64,000 bases of DNA. It comes from Isosphaeraceae bacterium. Its GTDB lineage: Bacteria; Planctomycetota; Planctomycetia; Isosphaerales; Isosphaeraceae. This document shows, in pieces, positions 1,817 through 60,837 of this stretch. Below the pieces are notes generated by a model. It did no database searches. It was not told where the DNA came from and saw nothing but the letters and a program-made list of their open reading frames with translations. The DNA lies in contig JAJPJC010000188.1 in the NCBI GenBank assembly GCA_021324445.1, positions 1 to 64,000 on the forward strand, in the 5' to 3' direction. The translations under genes and the position numbers were made by a program. Every line of letters starts with the position of its first letter. Position 1 is the first letter of the stretch.

Positions 1817-2147
1817 GAACCACAGATGAACACAGATTATTACCCCGGCCGGAAAGAGCCTCCTACGAGCCCGAAGCGCCAGCGAGGGAATTCTCCTACG
1901 AGCCCGAAGCGCCAGCGAGGGAATTCTCCTACGAGCCCGAAGCGCCAGCGAGGGAATTCCGGGGAGGGCCAGCCACTCACTCGCTGGCGCTTCGGGCTGC
2001 TATTCTGACCTTCTTCCTGGCCCGGGTAATAACACAGATCGCGAACGAGTCGTTGCGGATGTTGAGGCAGCACGCGATACGGCAATGCCCGAATGCGCCT
2101 CCGGCACACATCTTATCGCTTACTCTATCTGTGTTAATCTGTGGTTC
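1817..2147. repeat. MITE-like nested inverted-repeat element
   Basis: The 331-base stretch is bounded by 21-base inverted repeats (1817-1837 and 2127-2147, 20 of 21 matching). An inner, imperfect inverted repeat lies at about 1836-1855 and 2015-2033, around TTATTACCCCGGCC and its complement. Inside are three 33-base direct repeats (1861-1959), and an inverted 18-base copy of their core at 1981-1998. No transposase or target-site duplication is visible. It sits between two genes pointing toward each other (ends at 1801 and 2159). It is best read as a non-autonomous repeat or composite palindromic element. Confidence 0.7.
1861..1959. repeat. Three perfect 33-bp direct repeats
   Basis: Units at 1861-1893, 1894-1926 and 1927-1959 are identical and each ends in GAATTC. 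Since 33 is divisible by three, the repeat keeps frames open and yields spurious periodic peptides (SYEPEAPAREF in one frame, SPKRQRGN in another). The core AGCCCGAAGCGCCAGCGA recurs inverted at 1981-1998, so the array can fold back on that copy. Confidence 0.9.
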
Positions 2148-56502: not shown

Positions 56503-56919
56503 ATGGCGAAGAACATCTATGTGGGCAACCTGCCGTACGAAACGACCAGCGACGACCTGGTGCAGTTGTTCCAACCCTATGGGTCGGTGATCAGCGCCCA
56601 GGTGGTGATCGACCGGTTCAGCAATCGCAGCCGCGGGTTCGGCTTCGTCGAGATGGCCGATGACGCCGAGGCGCAGGCGGCCATCGACGCCCTGAACGGC
56701 CAGCCCTACGGCAGCCGCCCGCTGACGGTCAACGAGGCTCGACCGCGGACCGATGCGCCGCGGCGCAGCGGCGGCGGTGGCGGCGGTCGCGGCCGGAGTG
56801 GCGGCGGCGGTGGCGGCTACGGCGGCGGCGGTGGCGGCTACGGCGGCGGTGGCGGCTACGGCGGCGGCGGGGACTACGGGCGGGGTGACGACTACGGCCG
56901 GCAGAGAGGGCGCTATTGA
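56503..56919 (+). CDS. RRM RNA-binding protein with glycine-rich tail
   Basis: A 138-residue protein. One RNA-recognition motif (residues 1-80) with RNP2 IYVGNL and RNP1 RGFGFVEM. A C-terminal tail (about 88-138) made mostly of glycine with tyrosine and arginine repeats (GGYGGGGG, GDYGRGDDYG) follows. Such short single-RRM proteins with RGG/GGY tails occur in Planctomycetes and Cyanobacteria and are linked to RNA chaperone roles and cold response in the latter. The ribosome binding site is weak, but ATG at 56503 begins exactly at the RRM. The long poly-Gly stretch is a simple-sequence repeat and may be variable in length. Confidence 0.9.
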   Translation: MAKNIYVGNLPYETTSDDLVQLFQPYGSVISAQVVIDRFSNRSRGFGFVEMADDAEAQAAIDALNGQPYGSRPLTVNEARPRTDAPRRSGGGGGGRGRSGGGGGGYGGGGGGYGGGGGYGGGGDYGRGDDYGRQRGRY

Positions 56920-60616: not shown

Positions 60617-60618
60617 TG

Positions 60619-60837
60619 GATTCCAGATTCCAGGATTCCAAATTCCAAATATCAGATTCCAAATCCAAGTTTCAAATCCCAAATTCCAAATTGCAAAAGA
60701 AGGATTGCTTCAAGAATATGGGAATCCATCCCGGGCGGCCGGGCGATCCGTAGTTGCATTCGGTGAGGAATCTTGGACTTGCAACTGAAATGAAATCTAA
60801 CCATTGAGGAATCTGGAATTTTGAATCTGGAATTGAT
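60619..60837. repeat. AT-rich ATTCCAAATTCC repeat region
   Basis: From 60619 to about 60705 the sequence is a degenerate run of ATTCCA/TTCCAAAT units with low GC, unlike the flanking genes. A second part near 60800-60835 (GGAATCTGGAATTTTGAATCTGG) is similar in the opposite orientation, so the ends can pair. A GC-rich piece lies between. This resembles the short inverted-repeat elements seen elsewhere in the window. No coding sequence is seen. Confidence 0.75.

Follow-up and report, generated by a model that had tools for sequence, protein, structure and literature searches.

The 331-base stretch at positions 1817–2147 of the window, that is, of the 64,000 nucleotides of contig JAJPJC010000188.1 from an Isosphaeraceae bacterium that were analysed, probably consists of two mobile palindromes of different kinds, both relics and one lying inside the other, the outer one belonging to a family linked to genes for GxxExxY proteins (TIGR04256 / PF13366 PDDEXK_3). 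The stretch is located between two convergent gene ends, with an aminotransferase-like open reading frame ending at 1801 and a reverse-strand open reading frame ending at 2159. The outer copy is best read as a gene-less, interrupted relic of the GxxExxY-linked mobile palindrome. The inner unit has the form of a TA-flanked miniature inverted-repeat transposable element (MITE) bearing a REPIN, an inverted doublet of repetitive extragenic palindromic (REP) cores. Nothing in the window copy points to activity today. The genome to which it belongs (G000) comprises 10.8 Mb in 567 contigs, with 8.5% estimated contamination; other genomes are labelled with G, contigs with C and loci with L.

An earlier, sequence-only reading had described terminal, inner and triple direct repeats, all of which were found at the positions it gave. 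The terminal inverted repeats (1817–1837 and 2127–2147) are complementary at 20 of 21 positions, or at 89% when extended to 27 nucleotides. The inner inverted repeats at 1837–1857 and 2012–2032 match at 86%, while those formed by 1977–1998 with 1868–1889 (and also with 1901–1922 and 1934–1955) match at 95%. The direct repeat (1860–1959) contains three perfect copies of 34 nucleotides at a period of 33 nucleotides, and its core recurs inverted at 1977–1998. These repeats are real and well past chance expectation, with no matches to the REP core or outer arm motifs expected in dinucleotide shuffles of the window. Two features are absent from the earlier description: the outer arms are made up of 8-bp words with a 10-bp period, and a third unit of the left arm, at 2032–2039, has been pushed away by the insertion.

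The outer palindrome, with arms GAACCACAGATGAACACAGAT / ATCTGTGTTAATCTGTGGTTC, would have measured about 139 bp before the insertion. Units 1 and 2 of its left arm (GAACCACAGAT-GA-ACACAGAT) occupy 1817–1837 on the plus strand. They are followed by a TA (1838–1839), the left copy of the inner MITE's target dinucleotide, and by the MITE body (1840–2029, plus strand), a unit of the kind here called shell A, with the ends TTACCCCGGC and GCCCGGGTAA. The right TA is at 2030–2031 and the displaced third unit (ACACAGAT) at 2032–2039, plus strand. A non-coding centre that is not common to other copies (2040–2126) leads to the right arm, which has two units (2127–2147, minus strand). The junction reads ACACAGAT-TA-[TTACCCCGGC...GCCCGGGTAA]-TA-ACACAGAT. 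Excision of the 190-bp body together with one TA gives GAACCACAGATGAACACAGATTAACACAGAT, and the predicted arm without the inner MITE would contain ACACAGATTAACACAGAT. A 29-bp part of the restored arm, ACCACAGATGAACACAGATTAACACAGAT, is intact at G000:C83:2726–2754, where the third unit is uninterrupted. The restored arm and the intact copy on C83 together indicate that the inner element inserted at the TA spacer of an older outer arm, and this pre-existing spacer is most likely its insertion site. Comparison of the copies shows what appears to be a TA-flanked, REPIN-bearing MITE nested in the left arm of an outer ACCACAGAT-family palindrome. The 9-bp sequence AACACAGAT was considered as a target duplication of the inner insert and rejected, as the nine bases are successive outer-arm units and duplication of the TA alone restores the arm. 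For an orthologous empty site of the window, relatives were compared; they have the downstream gene, and the intergenic region is not common to them at the DNA level.

Both families are found apart from each other in the window's own genome, where the REP core occurs at 70 places (allowing up to three mismatches) and the outer arm at 18, with none for the reversed control patterns; the sequence-only reading had named a single genome copy as the sign of a merely local expansion, which is not what the genome contains. Outer copies elsewhere are palindromes of 74–129 bp without an insert, and inner copies are also present without the outer palindrome. On contig C44, a 193-bp shell-A unit (L082, G000:C44:5248–5441) holds a palindrome of the GxxExxY-arm kind with the word CACGGAA, so the two families nest in the reverse order too.

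The inner MITE is 190 bp long, gene-less, has terminal inverted repeats and is present in many genomic copies, most of the others being 100–126 bp long and bounded by TATTACCCCGGC ... GCCGGGGTAATA. A TA precedes 43 of 74 shell-A ends. Of 23 pairs of ends, 22 have TA at one end or both, and nine at both; the window copy also has it at both ends, its target being restored exactly. The shell contains the REP core AGCCCGAAGCGCCAGCGAGGGA three times on the plus strand (1868–1889, 1901–1922 and 1934–1955) and once on the minus strand (1977–1998). The third direct copy and the inverted copy are the left and right arms of the REPIN at the usual spacing, core starts lying 44 bp apart in almost every shell-A copy. 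The REPIN thus has one of its halves in three perfect 33-bp tandem copies (1860–1959, plus strand), where most other family members have a single copy; the same half forms 55-bp tandem duplications on two other contigs. The triplication is a local tandem expansion of one REPIN half. Other shells carry GTCAGGCT REPs or GGACGGGTCTCC REPs in place of the CCCGAAGCGCCAGCGAG pair. At L003 (G000:C554:7774–7880) a shell-A unit apparently lies inside the loop of a GTCAGGCT/AGCCTGAC REP hairpin. At L029, L053, L054, L057, L039 and L044 the REP core pair is found within shells of two further types, one of them CTAGAGCGC...GCGCTCTAG, and one REPIN is therefore packed in at least three different palindromic shells.

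The inner parts add new members to kinds already known, TA-targeted bacterial MITEs such as ERIC, RUP and Correia (PMC2229807) and REPINs (PMC3116915, PMC3733652). Like ERIC, RUP and Correia, the inner element is shorter than 200 bp and has terminal inverted repeats, TA ends and many copies; unlike them, it is GC-rich, carries exchangeable REPIN cargo and has no parent insertion sequence found, there being no pair of shell-A ends about 1 kb apart among the matches listed from the 567 contigs of its own genome. Like known REPINs, that of the window has two inverted cores at a fixed spacing, and its core flanks genes for REP-associated tyrosine transposases (RAYTs) in the relatives G049 and G048. 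It differs from them in being contained in a TA-flanked shell, in having one half triplicated and in that its cognate RAYT was not found in its own assembly. In the two relatives, the core CCCGAAGCGCCAGCGAG adjoins three RAYT genes, on both sides of L287 and L291 and beside L292, all three with an NHVHVVV-type HUH motif. G049 contains 209 + 198 copies of the REP core, and five other members of its genus contain none. The window's own genome has eight Y1_Tnp genes; the core is within 1.5 kb of none of them, nor is any of them similar to the RAYT of L292. With no cognate RAYT beside the core, the REP family in this genome has the look of a relic. Near two of these genes, L112 and L116, there are GTCAGGCT REPs, which are the cargo of other shells. 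At L116 (G000:C230:34482–34694), a RAYT gene, these GTAG-type REPs are located just past the end and further upstream. In another genome, a Y1_Tnp gene (L273, G014:C579:11858–12190) lies between the halves of a 53-bp inverted repeat, each some 200 bp away from the gene.

Instead of an IS630-type MITE, the 190-bp unit may be a REPIN whose flanks have been extended and which a RAYT moved in the form of single-stranded DNA. It does hold a REPIN, and other members hold other GTAG-type REP hairpins. However, the REP cargo varies between shells whose ends stay the same, TA flanks the ends as in ERIC, RUP and Correia (PMC2229807), and the RAYTs that go with this core are in relatives, with none beside it in the own genome; this origin is unlikely, though not negligible.

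Elsewhere than in the window, the arms of the outer family are also found in pairs 400–490 bp apart, bracketing a GxxExxY (PF13366) gene. In planctomycete genomes carrying the palindromes, 22 of 28 PF13366 genes have inverted arms (score of at least 13; mismatched pairs have a median of 8, with 95% at 11). In a sample from other phyla (cyanobacteria, NC10, Bacteroidota, Nitrospinota, Proteobacteria and others), such arms were found at 20 of 27 GxxExxY genes, compared with 8% of mismatched pairs. Among the readable arm-bracketed intervals of 400–490 bp, all those coding for a recognised protein code for GxxExxY. A GxxExxY gene is present in 18 of 20 genomes with solo palindromes, compared with 3 of 14 controls that were not lineage-matched (Fisher test, 8e-5). 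The earlier statement that the element has no gene of its own holds for the window copy, which has no gene between its arms and is filed as the gene-less form only, but not for the outer family, which brackets a gene elsewhere.

A comparison of sister species shows the GxxExxY gene element to be apparently mobile, present in one and absent from the other, once with a 27-bp target duplication. In G105 the element follows a sufS-like gene and lies between two copies of the 27-bp CAGGAAAGTGCAGGAGCTGTTTCGGTA, which is the end of that gene; in G190 the same site is empty and the sequence is single. Some 3 kb from there is a second site, at which G081 and G275 have the element and G142 does not; no duplication is visible. 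The repeat at L299 was rejected as a target duplication, being arm sequence. Short fixed target duplications of 2–9 bp were likewise rejected for the outer family, in the absence of a general signal; an excess of the 4-bp ATTT was traced to flanks that Scytonema relatives have in common. The solo palindrome at L227 (Nostoc sp. 106C) lies between imperfect direct repeats of 54 bp, possibly a long target duplication. Of the target duplications that the sequence-only reading proposed to look for at other copies, TA proved common at inner shells, while the solo outer palindromes have none in common.

The arm words are of the form CRCNRAN and differ from locus to locus (CACAGAT, CACAGAG, CGCAAAG, CACGAAT, CGCCAAG and others, several of them read by eye from inverted-repeat output), the two ends of an element being alike. 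When the final letter of the word is mapped onto a tree of 44 GxxExxY proteins, it changes seven times, compared with a mean of 18.1 and a minimum of 13 in 300 shuffles; with the 36 automatically read words alone there are again seven changes (shuffle mean 15.4, minimum 12). Planctomycetes, Pedobacter, Methylomirabilota and cyanobacteria occur together in the AGAT clade, with 48–69% protein identity between phyla. Arm word and putative nuclease phylogeny are thereby shown to agree, and arms changing in step with the nuclease gene suggest a transposase-free kind of mobile element. Alternatively, the arms could be the ends recognised by an unknown, widespread transposase, with GxxExxY as a passenger, for example as a nuclease useful to the host. 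The combination of target duplication and inverted arms is indeed transposon-like and solo copies without the gene exist. Yet the readable 400–490 bp intervals held GxxExxY and no other recognised gene, and arm words that follow the GxxExxY phylogeny are not expected of a passenger, making this alternative improbable, at perhaps one chance in a few.

The product of the arm-bracketed gene is a full-length GxxExxY protein (E-value 1e-42) and, as in the known family, the PD-(D/E)XK residues are invariant. Invariant among GxxExxY proteins are G, G, E, D, E-x-K, Y, N and F, while Q and a second Y are nearly so. An AlphaFold model (pLDDT 95.6) has as its best matches in the PDB Cas4 SSO0001, the lambda-type exonuclease LHK-Exo, the Cas4-family ACE1 and MGME1, all of them PD-(D/E)XK nucleases. 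GxxExxY is accordingly predicted by the model to be a Cas4-like PD-(D/E)XK nuclease with an E-D-ExK-QxxxY site. The passage on GxxExxY that was consulted in the literature mentions neither inverted arms nor mobility.

With the nuclease as the presumed driver of mobility, the protein would recognise the words in its own arms, which at their 10-bp spacing come once in each helical turn, and cut DNA; the element would then be copied into the cut during repair and so reach new sites. Gene-less palindromes such as that of the window would either have spread in trans, as MITEs, or be deletion relics. In its full form, which we propose tentatively and at a little under even odds, a GxxExxY gene and the inverted decamer arms around it make up a minimal transposase-free mobile element of about 0.45 kb, one of a class present in most bacterial phyla, in which a Cas4-like nuclease and the word it recognises co-evolve, and the gene-less palindromes, including the outer shell in the window, are their MITEs. 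Several observations weigh against the interpretation given here of the two palindromes. A clear long target duplication is present in one of 42 GxxExxY elements, that of G105, so that such a signature of insertion either is not the rule or is soon lost, and the solo palindromes as a set are without a common duplication. The Foldseek TM-scores are modest (0.4–0.56). The agreement between word and tree could come from vertical co-inheritance, or from arms that serve the gene (as terminators, for example) without being recognised by the protein. An AGAT-word gene matching the window's arms was not seen in its own genome, where the arms of the three PF13366 genes either consist of different words or are not clearly present. 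For the inner element, no transposase with shell-A ends was found in the fragmented own assembly.

Among named genomes, the pattern ACCACAGATNNACACAGAT-N20-50-ATCTGTGTNNATCTGTGGT occurs in at least 118 stretches, and the groups represented are many: Cyanobacteria, NC10, Alpha-, Beta-, Gamma- and Deltaproteobacteria, Verrucomicrobia, Bacteroidota, Planctomycetes, Chlamydiae, Acidobacteria, Nitrospirae, Nitrospinota and, among archaea, a Methanosarcinales metagenome-assembled genome. Since isolates are among the hosts (Scytonema NIES-4073, Chlorogloeopsis PCC 6912, Bacteroides xylanisolvens XB1A and Pedobacter soli DSM 18609), contamination is unlikely as a general cause. The octamers are fixed by the search pattern itself, while the 2-nucleotide spacers vary, being complementary in 39 of 115 cases where composition predicts 20.7. 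The arms extend to a third octamer at the 10-bp period, mostly ACACAGAT (119 of 230 arms), and a three-unit arm is found in 25 of 199 genomes of the planctomycete phylum. No matches to the outer palindrome were found in phages or E. coli; L267 (IMGVR_UViG_3300007072_000003, 1399–1480) is the sole viral contig found with it. Searches of the literature by sequence string returned nothing on bacterial repeats, nor was a link between the outer arms and GxxExxY found in the literature searched, subscription papers lying outside its scope. YPAL/RU-2 of Yersinia (PMC2229807) is likewise a small palindromic mobile sequence, with target duplications varying from 3 to 26 bp; unlike the outer family, it is known from Yersinia, and a bracketed nuclease gene and decamer arms are not described for it.

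Host selection without mobility, the palindromes being bidirectional terminators or hairpins at mRNA 3' ends and GxxExxY a gene flanked by its own terminators, would account for the strong hairpins and for the position of the window copy between convergent genes. According to a crude open reading frame caller, 24% of 90 classified solo copies lie between convergent genes, which make up 16% of the intergenic bases in the same loci, and 16% lie between divergent genes (28% of bases). The majority of copies, however, are not convergent, the arms are located both upstream and downstream of the gene, occurrence is patchy within the phylum, and presence and absence with a 27-bp duplication has been seen; the proportion of complementary spacers is also poor for a helix under selection. 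Selection of this kind is distinctly improbable as the explanation. For the mobile family, it is the near identity of palindromic arms of 20–30 bp between phyla, planctomycetes, cyanobacteria and Bacteroidota among them, that calls for explanation, and the literature searches made here turned up no published one. The link to GxxExxY offers a testable explanation, and a candidate role for a protein family that 18 of the 20 solo-palindrome genomes tested encode. If the nuclease recognises the arms, the natural arm words and their matched proteins would form a ready-made set of DNA-recognition specificities. In annotation, solo palindromes and REPIN-bearing MITEs account for many palindromic spacers in such genomes.

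The stretch folds as RNA with −150.3 kcal/mol, compared with a shuffle mean of −112.2 (z −7.6), and as DNA with −84, compared with −53.7 (z −7.15), none of 100 shuffles being as good in either case. The strong hairpin and the structure beyond that of a random spacer that the sequence-only reading had seen are both borne out; its mobile element stands as DNA of a mobile type, but not as one MITE, being two unrelated palindromes, each occurring apart elsewhere. A single composite MITE moving as a unit would fit the co-axial arms, inner repeats and core that fold into one hairpin, but is very improbable and was rejected, as the full 331 bp is matched in the own genome by the window alone, the next match spans 46–217 of 331 and the remaining ones comprise the inner part or one arm, the two families are found apart and the junction is a TA within an arm. 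As RNA or single-stranded DNA, the hairpin could act on the two convergent transcripts or gene ends as a by-product. A known structured RNA was considered and rejected, Rfam giving only sub-threshold, microRNA-like matches on the hairpin; a scan of eight outer-palindrome loci at gathering thresholds gave one match, to a HEARO RNA, which lies outside the palindrome at the margin of L149. Further along the window, tandem repeats of the GGCGGC and ATTCCAA types are present at 56760–56898 and 60618–60697, respectively.
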